From Metridium senile (taxonomy: Eukaryota; Cnidaria; Anthozoa; Actiniaria; Metridiidae): a DNA stretch of 64,000 bases. Shown piece by piece: positions 31,581 to 40,500 of the stretch. The stretch covers positions 2,587,368 to 2,651,367 of the forward strand of contig OX459105.1 of the NCBI GenBank assembly GCA_949775045.1. Direction: 5' to 3'. A program made the position numbers and the translations under genes. Below the pieces are notes generated by a model. The model had not been told where the DNA came from and ran no database searches. It saw only the letters and a list, made by a program, of their open reading frames with translations. Within the stretch, counting starts at the first letter, position 1. Each line of letters opens with the position of its first letter.

Positions 31581-34500
31581 CTAGTTACTGTCAGATTCAT
31601 AGTGCTCAGCACTAACAGGCTTCTTTTTGTAACTCCTTCGTTTCTTCTTCTTTGGTGTTCCATCGTCACCTTCACTTGCTGAGTCATGAGCTTTCTTCTT
31701 ATCCTTCTCAGAACCACTGAGGTCGTCGTTACTGCTGTGACCACCTTTTTTACTTTTCTTCGCCAAGTCTGTATCACTACCTGGAAATAACAACAATTTG
31801 AGTTTAATAATAATAAAGTTTTTATTTAAAGAGGGCGACACGGAATAGTTAAAACACTAATAAACTAGTGGCCCTCTATCTTAAATTATAAAATACATAT
31901 ATTACATATAAAATTTAGAATAAACTTAATTAATAAAAATTACATGTACAAGAATCATAATATAAAAATTAAACAATACAGTAAACACCCGCATAAAAGA
32001 ACAAGTGGTTTTTGGGCTCAGGCTGATGTGTTTCTTATATATTGGGTGGTTAGTGATCAGGCTGAAGAAATCAGGCTGAAGATTTTGTAAGAGGTTCTTA
32101 AAATTGTTTCTGGAAATGAGGTTATTTACTCTAGCAACTCCAATCCTGTCTGCAAAATACTGTGTGTTTGTAATGGTCCAGCACACATACTTAGATCAGC
32201 CCCAGTGTTTTCTAATTTTAGATACCCTATTTGTTTCACATAAGAACATGTTTCATTTGTCAGGCTCATGATGCTCATGATTACATGTATTACAAATGAA
32301 AATAACAATGAAAGCTAATGAAATAATGATTGATTGATAAACTTCATGCTTTAAAGTATGCCTTCAATCAAAAACAATCAAAAACAATAATTTTTAACAC
32401 AATCAAAAATATGCATACATCACAAATGAACATTTAAAAGTGCAACAATAAATATCTATGACATACCTTTCTCGGCATCACTGTCCTCATAGTCACTTCT
32501 CTTCCTTCTTTCCTTACTTTTCTTGTCTTTCTTTTTCTTGTGATGTCTACAAGAAAACACAAATACATTTCTTATAAAATTCATGATTAACTAATGAGAA
32601 TTTTACAATAATAACATCTGTGTCGAGATCTGTAAATCTCATACAGATTTCCACTTAAGGGCGTTCGCGGGCATTGTTTCTGCACATCCTTTCTGTGAGC
32701 GCCGTGGAATGCCTTTTTTCTTAAATTTCACTAGCTCTTCATTTACTATATGGACCATCACTTGACATGAATACTTGTCTTCTAGTGCAAATAACTCACC
32801 TTGAATGCTTGGGTGATTCGGATGGTGATGGACTTTGTTTAGCCCTGGTTCTATCTCCATCCCGATCACGTTCCCTACGATCCCCATCATGAGCCCTATC
32901 ACGATCCCTACGATCTCTGTCACGATCAGGATCTCTACGATCCCTATTGCGGTCTCTGTCTCTTGCTATTTCTCTGCTTCTGTCCCTCTCACGATCTCTC
33001 TCTTTTGATTTCCTAGGCTTCTCGTCTTCCAGGTCATCTACTTCAGCATCTGACTTTGCCTGACCCTCGTCTCTATCAACAGGTTTTTCTTCTGACTTCT
33101 CACGTGAACGATCACAAGCCTTTTCACCTGACCCTGGAGGTGATCTCTCCTTTGATTTGTTGCGTGATTTTTCTGGTGATTTGTCACGTGATTTCTCCTT
33201 GGAGCGATCCATAGCTTTGGATCTGTCCCTAGATCTGTCACGTGGTCTTCCCAGTGACCTCTCTGGGGATCTTTTCCTTTTCTCTGGAGATCTGCTTCGT
33301 CGACGACCGAGACGTGCTTCCCTGAGATTAGATAATAAACATCAACCATCATGATTATCAATATTATTTTCATTACCATCATACATGCTTCTACTGTTAC
33401 AGTTTACAATAGGTCTTAGAAGACAATTGCAAGGTACCATGCTGTCATATTAAAACAGATTGGATCACTTAGAACCTTGCAAGGTTTTTTAAGGCAACAA
33501 TAAAGCAATATATAGCAACTCGGTGCTCACTTTTCAAGATTGCACCCCAATGGTTAACCTTAACAGTACAAATCTGTATTCTTATCATCACTATTACAGT
33601 AAAACCCTGCATATAAGAACCTAAAATTTAAGAACCTGTCAGGCTGAAATTTCCATTTGTTTTTCTGTAAAAAAGAGCCATGTGCAAAAGCATTGACCTG
33701 TATGTAAATACAATAGGAAGAAAGGTGTTGTAATGATGAAGTGAGTGATGCTTATAGAACCTACATAGCCAGATTTCAAGTTAAGCACCATTTATATAAG
33801 AACCTGTTCAGGCTGACTTGGAAAAATCTAGGTTCTTATACACCACTTTCATAAGTACCATAATATGTAGCAGAAAATGATTTTTCAAGTAAACAGATAT
33901 GTTCATATTTTAGCATTGTCATATGAAAGAACCACCTGAAATAGGCATGTTTGGAAGGTTTTGATGCTCTGGCTAAAATACCAAAGAAGTTATGCTTATT
34001 GAAAAATGTAAAGATTTGTATGTAATTTTCTACTACTACCATTTGCAAGCAAGCGTTAACTGTGAACTTTTTTTCGGTTTGTTTACGTTTTGAAACGCGA
34101 CGTTGTCTGGCCGATCGTTATCTTTGTGGGCGTGAAGTCTAAAGTTTGAAAGACAAACAATCAACTTTTGACAGGCCATTACATGTGGTTTTGCCGACAG
34201 CGCGCCTGGGTTTTGATATTAGTAAGCCAAAGTTTCATCCAAGCTATATCTTCGGTAACAAGATGCAAGTCAATAATCAAGGACGTTCGTTTAAGCCAGG
34301 TGTAGCTCTTTCAGACGATATGAGGAATCTGATAATTGACGAACTTTGTGGTCTTGGAGGTGACAGAACTACGCAATACATTCCCATCGGCTCTTACGCC
34401 AAAGTTGCGAAAACTTTGAAAGTTTCAAAAGCCACCGTTAAAAAAATATGGATTCAGTTTTGTGACAATTATTCATCTACAAGAAAGGAATGTGGAGGTG

Positions 34501-37500
34501 ATCGTTGTAGTAAACTTGAGCCTGAAGATTTGGAGCTCATCGAAGTGATGAAAAACTACAAGGGATCGGTTTCATTAAAGGAAATCTATTCAACATTGGA
34601 GGAACTAGGAAATATCGGGGGAAATATTTCTATCTCAGCGATTTCGCGGGCGCTCAAGTCAAGGATGTTATCTGGTAAAGAATACACTCGAAAGAAAATA
34701 ACACAAATAGCTCGTGAACGCTTTGGTTATGATAATTTATTGTACACTCAGCTGTTTTTGGATTATCTAAGCTCAAAGGATCCAAAACGCTTGAAATTTT
34801 TTGATGAAGCTGGGGTTAAATATGGCGATGTTGGAAAGCGTTTATATGGGCATGCACCGAAAGGCGAGCGGTGCGTAGAAATTTCAAAAAAGTGCGAATC
34901 GCCTAATTCAACTGTTAATATGCTTGTGTCTTTGGACGGACCAGAATATTATGAAGTTATTGACGGTGCCACAAACACAATTGAATTCTTGAAGTTTTTT
35001 GAGCAAGCTTCAAATGCTGTTAATCTAGAAACAATGCGTCCCGTCCTACAGGTTGGCGACATTGTAGTGATGGATAATCTTGCGGTTCATCACTACGACG
35101 GCGGCGAAGTTCTTGAGGAATATTTACAAGAAATGGGCATAGAATTGTTATACACGCCTGTTTATTCTCCAGACTTAAATCCTATTGAACTTTGTTTTAA
35201 TAAAATGAAAACAGTTATGAATTATGAGCTTCAAGATATAACTTGTACAAACATACAATTAGCAACAATGTTTGCCATCGAAACAATTACATATGGTGAT
35301 ATGATTGGTTTTTTTAGAAATACTTCTTATCTATTTCCTTGAATAAATTGTACAATAACAACAACAGATGATCTCAACTCAAGTAAAAATAAACTCAACA
35401 AAGTAAATAACACAACTGCATCTCTAGACTTGTAAGACGTTCTAACGGTGATATAGAGTTTCAAAATTGAATATTCTTGTAATGATACGTTCATTTTTAA
35501 ATATAGTATATCAAACGTGAAACAAATGTATTTGAGTTATTTCACAATAAAATGTTAACGGCTTTGAAATCAATAGACTGTTTTTTTACACGTGTCATGA
35601 AGTTGTTCTAATATGTTTACAAGTCAATGCTTTCGCAGAGAGAGCAGAGCACTTGCTGCTTCATTAACTTGGTCTGTTGAATCGTCAGGTACAGAGCTTT
35701 TGTGTTCATTTCTTGGACAAGTAGATGTACAGGTTACTTGACTTTGCGGCAATTGGTTTAGGCGATGACTTTCCACGAAACTAGCTGACAATGCTAATTT
35801 CAGTTGTTCGTTTTCTTCGTCTTGCGTCTTAGGCTTTATTCGATCAATCCAATTCGAAGGTCTCCAATTTTCATCTACTAAACATGTAGGAGATGACTCA
35901 GTTGGGAACTCGATACCACGCCTTTCTAAGACGGGTTTGCAGTGATTTTCTCTCGATGCTTTTGACATTTTGTGTTGAATTAGACCAGAAACATTAGTCC
36001 CATTGTCTGTATCAGTCATAGATAAAGCAGTTTTTAGCGTGTTCAAGACTTCATGCCTGGGTGGAATTTTTCCCTTCAATACAGTTCGACAGTAGTTTCT
36101 TAAGACAAAAACATGTTTTCTGAGGAGACTCCAGTTTTTTGTTCCATGTACATAATAAGATTCTCTATCTGCATCAAGTAGAGAGTTTTCTAGTCTATTT
36201 AAAATCGAGTCTTTTATACTCTCAGCGGACGATTTTTTGTGTTTCAGTTCCTCCAACAGTTTGTCTTTTTCATTTTTCAACTTGTTTATTCTTTGTTTAA
36301 GCTCCCTCAAACTTACTTCGCCTGAATGGAACTTTTCTTCTCCACAGCTATAGACGGACGAACACTTGTCAAAATTACAATTTCTGGCGGTGTGACCCAA
36401 TCGCATGTGGCAGTTGTGACAAAGAGAACCTTGGCCATTTCCTAATCTTGCTGTTTGTAATCTACTAATAATCCACGACTCTTTCGCCAGTAGCTTGTTA
36501 ATTTGTTTATCTTTCTCTCTTATGTTTTCTTCCGTTTTAGTGATATACCTTCTCGATGGGCGTAGATACTTTTTCGTGTGTGGGAACATTCACGATGACG
36601 GGTCTCTTTGAATTACTAGAGCTAGCTGAGTTAAAGTCAAGTCGACGCTTGCGTTCTTTTGAGTCTTCTTTCGGTTGGGATTCTGTCTGTTCTTTCTCTT
36701 TAATTGGTTCCCGTTTTCCAACAGGTGTCAGTTCATCATTTATTCTTACACACATTCTTGAAACATCTCCGTCAGTATTTGGGATAGGACTTAGGCTCAA
36801 TATAGCATCATTCAAATCTAAGTTGTCTTTCATAGTGACGAAGGTGCCTTCATCGTCGCGGTATTGAATTCGTTGTCCTACAGAACTGAAACCGACTGCT
36901 TTCATTATGATCTTTTTAAAGTTATCGAAAGACATATAGGTTAATGTTTCTTTGTCAATAGAGTGCACTTTACATTTTGTATAATTCTCACCGTAGAGAA
37001 TTTTGACCCTAACAGCCTTCGCCATGTTGAATGGTAGTCTAACAGTCACAAACTTGTTTTAGAGCGGGAAAGTTACGCGCGCTGTCGGCAAAACCACATG
37101 TAATGGCCTGTCAAAAGTTGATTGTTTGTCTTTCAAACTTTAGACTTCACGCCCACAAAGATAACGATCGGCCAGACAACGTCGCGTTTCAAAACGTAAA
37201 CAAACCGAAAAAAAGTTCACAGTTAACGCTTGCTTGCAAATGGTAGTAAGGCCTTTGATGCCTCGTTTTGGTGTTTTTCTGATTTTTCAAACTCTTTAAT
37301 TATAGCTTCTTGCAAATTTAATCGTTTTTCTCAAACTTTCACAAGTTATTGTTATGGTGAATGCCTATCATATGATGGCTTTCGTTTTCTTAAAACATCA
37401 ATTTTAAAAATTATGATAATTAATGGCGGCCATTTATGAAAGTCATCTATATGCAGGGTTTTACTGTACCACAAATTGTAAATTATTATTGCTAATAATA

Positions 37501-40500
37501 TTATCTGAATTCAATCATTATTGATAGAACAGCACATAAATCATGGGGAAAAGGAGATATAACTCACCTACTACGAGATCTCCTGGACCTCTCACGAGAT
37601 GGTGACTTTCTTCTCCTATCCCTGTCACGAGATTTTTCCCTGAAGAATAAGAAAATAAATGAAAATTAAAAATGGTGACTATCGTTATGATTCATACTAT
37701 GATAATAATAATAATAATAATAATAAACTTTATTAAACACAGAATACAAAAAGAAAAATCATTGTTATTAAGAGATGCAAACCTAAACTTGACTGTCTCA
37801 TTTATGAGATGCTCTTCATCCGTGACCGTCGACCGACACTTAACAAACAATCAGATTCTGTACGGGCCAAAGTCTTTGTTTGACTCTTTTGTTTATTTCA
37901 ATCCTATTGTATATTGTATACTTAAGCGAATATGTCAAACCTTTATGTAATTAAAGCCTTGAAAATGGAGTCAAGATGACTCCGAAACGTCATATTCTTG
38001 CGTTAGTTTTTATTCTAAATATGTTTTCAAAAATCTCTTTTACTTAAAGACTGATAATGATGATAACAATGATGATAACAATATTGATGACTCTGGAATG
38101 ATTATGATGACAAGAATGTTAATGATGATATCAATAATGATGACTCTGGAATGATTATGATGACAAGACTGATAATGATGATAACAATATTGATGACTCT
38201 GGAATGATTATGATGACAAGACTGATAATGATGATAACAATATTGATGACTCTGGAATGATTATGATGACAAGACTGATAATGATGATATCAATAATGAT
38301 GATAACAATATTGATGACTCTGGAATGATAATGATGATATCAATAATAATGATAACAATATTGATGACTCTGGAATGATAATGATGACAAGAATGTTAAT
38401 GATGATATCAATAATGATGATAACAATATTGATGACTCTGGAATGATTATGATGACAAGACTGATAATGATGATATCAATAATAATGATAACAATATTGA
38501 TGACTCTGGAATGATAATGATGACAAGAATGTTATAGTCAAACAAGCTCACGCGTTGACCCCTAGAGTCGATTAATGATTTGAAGGTTTGATTGTCGATT
38601 TCATTTTTCAGTTGAATTTTGCATCGTCGAAAACGAAGAGTGCAAAATTCAAATCAAATTTAAATTTTGATTGGTTAATGATTAACACAGGAAGACCAAG
38701 AAAGCTTGGCGGCTAGGAATCTTTTCTGTGTTTACGTGCCAGGAAGGCATTTATCGAATCTTATTCGACAATATATCGTTTAACTAAGCAATAGTTGTTT
38801 ATCTAACAAAGATATTTGATTCCGTCAATCGACAATATCTAACTGGGAGTCTAGAAGACACTTGAAGAAGAAAATACAAGGAGTTTACTAACGATAAAAT
38901 TTGTCAAGTGATTGAAATTGAAGCTCAAAAACTCCAGCGTTCATGGTCATGAAATTTGACATAGACTTCTTCTCCAAGGTTTTTACCCACCTTTGTTTTA
39001 TCTGATTTATTTTATCAAATCACAAGTCGAATTTCGACCTGATTCTTTGTTTTAATATTGCAATATTCGGTTAATCCCATTCGCACAGATAAAACGAATA
39101 ATCGACGAATGATTTGATTAATCCACTCTAGGGGTCAACGCGTGAGCTTGTTTGACTGTAATGATGATATCAATAATGATGATAACAATATTGATGACTC
39201 TGGAATGATAATGATGACAAGAATGATAATGATGATATCAATAATAATGATAACAATAATAATACCACTATTGATTACCTAGAACGTGATTTTCTATAAC
39301 GATTTCTTGACCAAGATGGTGACCTCGACTTCATTTTGCGAGAGCCTGACATTGACCTTCTCCTGCGTGAACCTGACCTTGATCTTGATCTTCTTGATCG
39401 TGATCTGCTTCTCTCTGAAAAATTTAGTAACTTTAGCCTATGAAAGGATATATTTACATGCAAATTCATATCACACAACTTGGTGTAATGTAATGTAATG
39501 TAATGTAATGTAATGTAATGTAATGTAATGTAATGTAATGTAATGTAATGTAATGTAATGTAATGTAATGTTATGCAATGGAATGTAATGTAATGTATTG
39601 TAATGTACTTTAATGTAATGTAATGTAATGTAATGTAATGTAATGTAATGTACTTTAATGTAATGTAATGTAATGTAATGTAATGTAATGTAATGTAATG
39701 TAATGCTATGTAATGTAATGTAATGCTATGTAATGTAATGTAATGTAATGTAATGTGATGTAATGTAATGTAATGTAATGTAATGTAATGTAATGTAATG
39801 TAATGTAATGTAATGTAATGTGGTGCTTATACACCTATTTCAATAATTATTGTCACAATCAAAGCTACAATCTACACTCTAAAGCCTGCAAAGGATGTTG
39901 GTATTTCTTCTCTTGTTATCAATTTATTCATAGCATATTTTGGTTGTACTAGTTTGTGTTAAATAACCATAACAAGTTGTTGCAGTGGTAGATAATTATA
40001 CAAATATTTCTTGAAAATACGTCTAATAAATCTCAAATTATGTTGATATTACCGACATCCTTTGCAAGTTTCAGAGTGTGGACTGTAGCTTTGATTGCGA
40101 CAACGATTATTGAATAAGGTATATAGCAAATTTTCACATAGGGTGGTGCAAATAACTTGTTGTCACTAAGTTGCTCAATACAGCCTAGAAGGACATGTAT
40201 GCTCTTCGTGACAATGTATGTGGTAGCTTCAAGTTTAATTTTAACCTTTTACTCCGACAAGGGGCTAAAGCTCGAAACGTCAGTAAAGTTAAGTCAACAT
40301 TTTTTGCAGTGTTACAAATTTCATTCTATTACCTATCGTGTATATCAAACACCGACGCAGCCTATACTAGTTTACTCGCTAGTTTCTATTTCTATTTTGT
40401 ACGGTGTTACAAATTTCATTCTATTACCTATCGTTTATATCAAACACTGACACAGCCTATACTAGTTTACTTGCCAGTTTCCATTTAACTGATTATAACT

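Follow-up and report, generated by a model that had tools for sequence, protein, structure and literature searches.

The 64,000-nucleotide stretch of the Metridium senile genome analysed here (assembly GCA_949775045.1, contig OX459105.1, positions 2,587,368 to 2,651,367 of the forward strand; hereafter the window) carries a young copy of a Tc1/mariner transposon that is autonomous and has two genes. In addition to a DD37E transposase, the element encodes an accessory protein with an N-terminal PB1 domain, a Cys/His zinc cluster and a coiled-coil core, and this second gene appears to belong to the transposon as a partner rather than to be a chance passenger. The element fills window positions 34036-37246, exactly as delimited in a preliminary description of the sequence, and the perfect 170-bp terminal inverted repeats (TIRs), the TA duplication and the intact DD37E transposase reported there for a complete element were all confirmed. 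With the TA duplication included, each arm measures 172 nucleotides (34034-34205 and 37077-37248) and the two are 100% complementary.

When the left end of the element was searched against the 389-Mb genome from which the window comes, seven full-length copies of 3155-3217 bp (with TA) were recovered. All seven are flanked by TA and contain both genes between matching TIRs, which bears out the mobile two-gene element with a PB1-bearing partner proposed in the preliminary description. The opposite outcome, with the PB1 and zinc genes missing from other copies or confined to host loci, was looked for and was not what we found. The full-length copies diverge pairwise by only 0-0.31% outside gaps, so its movement is recent. 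All seven keep an open transposase frame and five an open accessory frame, and therefore intact copies of both genes exist. Several short TIR-bounded derivatives are also present. Four of these (L015-L018, in C4, C6 twice and C16) are 434-436 bp long and consist of the left 320 bp joined to the outer 119 bp of the TIR, with 96-97% identity to the window over the left part. An older element, L031, combines TIRs of 136 bp (at 97%) with an accessory frame intact over 501 residues and remnants of a convergent transposase.

The window transposase is assigned to Pfam DDE_3 (E=1.8e-22), with 37 residues separating its second and third catalytic positions. For a paired-type helix-turn-helix N-terminus its scores lie below the cut-offs (HTH_SB, E=0.021; PAX, E=0.11), and PAX is precomputed for some homologous transposases. 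As a query it gave 114 matches in the genome, merged to 112 places, from which 16 related regions (L053-L068) were chosen; these represent 15 families, L067 and L068 being near-copies. TIRs were detected in 14 of the 16, and in all 14 of these elements a TA lies next to the terminal motif (judged by eye, 0-3 bases in from the end of the arm). Catalytic spacing is 37 residues in eight and 38 in seven of 15 family transposases. A tree of 15 sequences, from which L060 (short frame) and L067 were left out, separates a DD37E clade of eight rows from a DD38E clade of seven with a support of 100/100.

The accessory region had been described as two convergent overlapping frames. Convergence with the transposase stood, but the region is one gene: a single open frame spans PB1 domain, zinc cluster and coiled coil in five of the seven full-length copies and also in the relatives L031, L054, L057, L058 and L059, and the whole of the intact copy L013 holds two frames of at least 150 residues. 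The accessory frame is broken by a frameshift in the window copy and by a 59-bp deletion in another. Two genes in overlapping frames are what the window copy alone shows, and the single frame of the five copies refutes that reading. An intron joining two exons was likewise dropped, as copies with one open frame exist. The eight ligand columns of the Cys/His zinc cluster are invariant in all 15 rows of an alignment (A2) comprising 10 of the 32 PB1-type search homologs besides P0001, the window family's own protein, and P0003, plus four proteins from the same genome. No Myb domain is among the matches listed when Pfam families are given for the accessory proteins. Relatives on viral contigs were considered and rejected, none of 10 pattern-matching stretches encoding one.

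A second gene is present in 15 of the 16 fetched regions, counting the broken or partial frames of L053, L055, L056 and L067, and a homologous one in 14 of the 15 further families. The accessory protein P0001 matched the genome 71 times, at 67 merged places, and 51 of these have a transposase place no more than 5 kb away (chance expectation about 0.35%), 50 of the 51 in convergent orientation. Conversely, among the 68 transposase places with identities of at least 36%, 51 have an accessory match within 5 kb; the 17 others include fragments and L055, whose core is visible. With an accessory protein from the DD38E clade (SAM-type, see below) as query, 36 of 44 remoter transposase places are linked within 9.5 kb, 35 of them within 5 kb, on the basis of the 52 strongest of 136 match rows; 24 of these pairs are in tandem and 12 convergent. 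Of the eight remoter places left unlinked, five resemble the family of L063 in frame length and identity, and one adjoins a PB1-type match. All of these counts are lower bounds, the searches being candidate-limited. Gene order varies within the DD38E elements, being tandem in L060-L062, L064 and L065 and convergent in L066 and L068.

The accessory frame is under purifying selection: in seven family pairs pN (nonsynonymous) is 0.28-0.44 against a saturated pS (synonymous) of 0.80-0.90. Distances between transposases and between accessory cores are correlated across 11 elements (r=0.91). Of 5000 unrestricted shuffles 1 gives as high a value, as do 44 of 5000 shuffles confined to within clades. 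Within DD37E alone the correlation is 0.86 (reached by 12 of 2000 shuffles). The accessory trees omit L053, L055, L056, L063 and L067, which are broken, partial, unclear or a copy. Transposase and accessory gene are widespread in the genome as a linked pair, and their divergence agrees between the clades and within DD37E. The capture of PB1 by a mobile element has a precedent in MUG7 and MUG8, exapted proteins from MULE transposons (PMC8616336). A captured host passenger gene without a role in transposition is nevertheless very improbable here, with homologs in two transposase clades and a frame kept by selection, and chance capture is rejected because of the recurrence of the second gene in 14 of 15 families and its linkage at 51 of 67 places.

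Protein searches returned 32 PB1-type rows (one of them P0001), 70 SAM-type rows and 771 transposase rows, of which the best 120 are listed. The organisms named among the rows seen are Paramuricea, Dendronephthya, Montipora, Actinia, Oculina and Stylophora, all anthozoans. Four of the 32 accessory rows share their longest-contig size with a listed transposase row (3566, 146090, 262424 and 2343, matched by eye), which suggests that the two genes are linked in other genomes too. One annotated protein (P0187, Oculina patagonica, 605 residues) contains both an accessory-like part and the PAX-like N-terminus of a transposase and is perhaps a gene-prediction fusion of the two transposon genes.

The match to the PB1 domain named in the preliminary description is real but, in the window, weak (E=2.7e-4; 21.3 bits, below the Pfam cut-off of 23.6). 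P0001 likewise falls below it (19.4 bits), while P0003 (25.6 bits), L053 (29.8), L066 (24.1) and P0012 (37.4) lie above. At E≤0.1 Pfam PB1 is found in 18 of 31 homologs, the best at 2.5e-9, and among DD37E accessory proteins it reaches E≤1e-3 in the window family, L053 and L059 and is weak in L058 (E=0.026). A profile of the accessory family matches the PB1 domains of Cdc24 (1q1o, E=2.6e-4) and of an NBR1 homolog (6tgn, E=1.5e-3), which resemble it in profile but belong to host proteins and are not carried by transposons. P0001 has both the basic lysine and the acidic OPCA motif, with threonine at the last OPCA position. Crude patterns applied to 37 rows, many of them truncated, found the lysine in 15 and the acidic stretch in 24 (four misplaced as judged by eye). 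The PB1-type alignment (A4) comprised 31 of the 32 rows and the SAM-type alignment (A5) 41 of the 70.

Beyond what had been described, the element belongs to a large clade in which sister elements carry a domain resembling the sterile alpha motif (SAM) in place of PB1. The DD38E accessory proteins of L060, L061, L062, L064, L065 and L068 start with a conserved SEVxxWL..FESRGF..SL.YL..DLD..SP.KLLLAEKR block. Among 41 SAM-type homologs, Pfam at E≤0.1 gave SAM_1 in 12 and SAM_2 in seven (best E=1.2e-4, the printed scores below the cut-off). A PDB search with whole SAM-type proteins returned six matches at E=0.41-0.96, none of them a SAM domain by name. The profile of the N-terminal part returned four at E=0.31-0.52, including ARAP2, EphA4 and an ANKS1B entry named sterile alpha motif; the matched ARAP2 and EphA4 chains are presumably SAM domains. 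The AlphaFold2 model of the SAM-type homolog P0157 (mean pLDDT, the predicted local distance difference test, 79.6; pTM, the predicted template modelling score, 0.47) has N-terminal helices at residues 6-14, 20-29, 36-40, 45-49 and 58-72 (block pLDDT 75-93). After a low-confidence linker (87-133) come two long helices with the zinc cluster between them, and then three more helices. On these grounds the N-terminal module of most DD38E accessory proteins examined appears to be SAM-like.

The N-terminal module thus differs while the accessory core is kept. Core homology between the PB1 and SAM types was recovered by hhalign (98.5%, E=2.7e-15, a single pair), and a SAM-type gene used as a plain protein query retrieves PB1-type genes at E of about 1e-9 to 1e-6. 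L066 has a DD38E transposase, sister to that of L062 (97/96), yet a PB1 accessory protein just above the Pfam cut-off, with a core 49% identical to the query of the SAM-type profile. Its position in the core tree is basal to the SAM types (94/93), so that L066 may retain the ancestral PB1 domain or may have regained it. PB1 domains with basic and acidic faces and SAM domains both associate head to tail, and are structurally different folds (PMC7051960).

We propose, with a confidence slightly better than even, that the accessory protein is an integral co-factor of transposition, putatively oligomerising and acting with the transposase. It combines a putative N-terminal head-to-tail association domain, a linker, a helix-flanked Cys/His zinc cluster and the conserved core. 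The core would contact the transposase or the element ends, and the N-terminal module would multimerise the protein, which, to judge from its domains, probably links to copies of itself. The resulting oligomer could concentrate transposase and pair the element ends. That PB1 or SAM stands over a constant core would best be explained if multimerisation were the property maintained by selection. With its core supplying the contact to transposase or DNA, the accessory protein would be a co-factor in the manner of the Myb-like partner of Harbinger, but of different origin. The start codons of both window genes lie ∼50-60 bp interior to the identical TIRs, and roughly 5-110 bp interior to the TIR wherever starts could be read in the other convergent DD37E elements. 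As the TIRs ahead of the two start codons are identical, they may act as promoters that give both genes matched dosage.

Several observations weigh against this proposal. Pfam PB1 found no match in the DD37E accessory proteins of L054, L056 and L057, which align with PB1-type relatives over part or all of the N-terminal region; in L055 the core was seen and the N-terminus was not. Threonine takes the place of the last acidic residue of the OPCA core (DDEGT) in the window protein and in most DD37E relatives. No exact internal repeat of 8-12 bp, as would suit a multimeric binder, was found in the window TIR. Within DD38E there is no correlation between transposase and accessory distances (r=0.24, reached by 1201 of 5000 shuffles). 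Sixteen of the 67 accessory places have no transposase match within 5 kb. The sequence beside three of them was inspected: a transposase, in two frames, adjoins one, and the 2.1-2.5 kb on the expected side of the other two contain none. Finally, the L063 family has no clear accessory gene. L063 (1-4701, DD38E) contains convergent frames with a faint likeness to the core, seen by eye, and a lysine/serine-rich stretch, frames that are perhaps a third accessory type.

Two other roles were weighed. Tc1/mariner transposases are known for overproduction inhibition, and a self-assembling accessory protein might act as a dosage regulator or repressor which sequesters or poisons the transposase and so limits host damage; convergent genes behind identical TIRs could give the matched dosage such a role would use. 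Selection would, however, hardly maintain a pure repressor in young multicopy elements, and five of the seven copies keep the full frame, so that we regard this role as unlikely. Alternatively, PB1 or SAM might dock on host PB1 or SAM proteins to evade silencing or to steer insertion. Both modules have host partners, Polycomb-type SAM proteins and autophagy PB1 proteins being example candidates. PB1 and SAM are not known to share partners, and because of this their exchange fits self-association better than tethering, which we hold to be somewhat less probable still than repression. Tethering does have in its favour that Polycomb SAM proteins form condensates in animal cells (PMC7614096).

A more far-reaching form of the co-factor proposal is that a large animal Tc1/mariner clade depends on an ATP-free polymer encoded by the element itself, a head-to-tail PB1 or SAM scaffold on the TIRs which gathers transposase and pairs the ends. 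We put this forward tentatively, as a possibility with the odds against it. If true, the scaffold would be a eukaryotic functional counterpart of the bacterial filament-forming transposition regulators, and polymerisation would have been conserved while the polymer domain itself was swapped.

The statement in the preliminary description that such elements normally encode only a transposase is too strong, as there are exceptions in ciliates (PMC7325037, PMC3464196). TBE, Tec and the Paramecium elements Sardine, Thon and Anchois likewise combine a Tc1/mariner-type transposase with extra open reading frames (ORFs), one of which encodes a zinc finger in TBE, and long TIRs also occur (Tec ∼700 bp, Sardine 425, Thon ∼700). 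These elements differ in being DD34E or DD35E, in having three or more ORFs, against the two of L013, and in carrying a tyrosine recombinase in Tec, Sardine and Thon; the excerpts of these two papers, in which the extra ORFs were compared by description only, name no PB1 or SAM domain. DD37E(L31), the oyster Mariner-31_CGi-like group, is also DD37E, was first described from oyster and is placed beside Tec (PMC7325037; compared by description only). The Mosquito (MS) elements share DD37E, the TA duplication and presence in cnidarians, but are about 1.3 kb long with the transposase as their one ORF (PMC10379824). Harbinger elements likewise pair a DDE transposase with a separate accessory protein, the gene trees being globally congruent (PMC9179366), but belong to another superfamily with a Myb-like partner in place of PB1/SAM-zinc; here no Myb domain is among the Pfam families listed for the accessory proteins, and the transposase is of the DDE_3 type, not of the Harbinger type. 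MUG7 and MUG8 (MUSTANG-B) also tie PB1 to a DDE transposase lineage, but are exapted host proteins of MULE origin that carry PB1 themselves (PMC8616336). Extra genes in ciliate Tc1/mariner elements and the association of PB1 with a DDE lineage are thus already known. No Tc1/mariner element bearing PB1 or SAM was found in the literature searched on such elements and families; a second ORF may already stand in the L31 oyster and bivalve papers, which lie outside that scope.

Table 1. Parts of the two-gene element in the window, with strand and the evidence for each assignment.
Feature	Position	Strand	Evidence
Left TA target-site duplication	34034..34035	.	TA at both ends in 7/7 full copies
Left terminal inverted repeat, 170 bp	34036..34205	+	100% complementary to right arm
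Transposase gene, 359 residues from ATG, DDE_3 superfamily, DD37E	34263..35342	+	Pfam match, open frame, D..E spacing
Accessory gene, convergent; single 466-residue frame in 5/7 copies, window copy frameshifted	35624..37025	-	
Accessory part: PB1 domain (basic lysine, OPCA-like acidic stretch) and linker	36537..37025	-	Pfam PB1, Cdc24/NBR1 profile matches
Accessory part: Cys/His zinc-type cluster (CxxCH..H..C..C..C..H)	36326..36421	-	Eight invariant ligand columns
Accessory part: coiled-coil stretch, conserved core and variable tail	35624..36325	-	
Right terminal inverted repeat, 170 bp	37077..37246	-	Complementarity with left arm
Right TA target-site duplication	37247..37248	.	TA at both ends in 7/7 full copies

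Two features of the surroundings (Table 1 gives the element itself) were also recorded. A perfect 21-nucleotide inverted repeat flanks the element at window positions 33595-33615 and 37448-37468, from which the element seems to have inserted inside an older TA-bounded non-autonomous element. On the minus strand at 37570-37640 there is an arginine/serine-rich stretch with splice-like edges, and the element may lie within an intron of a gene for an SR-type splicing factor.

Tc1/mariner elements serve in textbooks as the example of a one-protein transposon, and gene tools of the Sleeping Beauty type are built on them. A large lineage that has kept a second gene means that part of this superfamily evolved a two-protein system. 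The exchange of PB1 and SAM over a constant core predicts that self-association is the selected property, and the young, near-identical intact copies in M. senile make this prediction testable.

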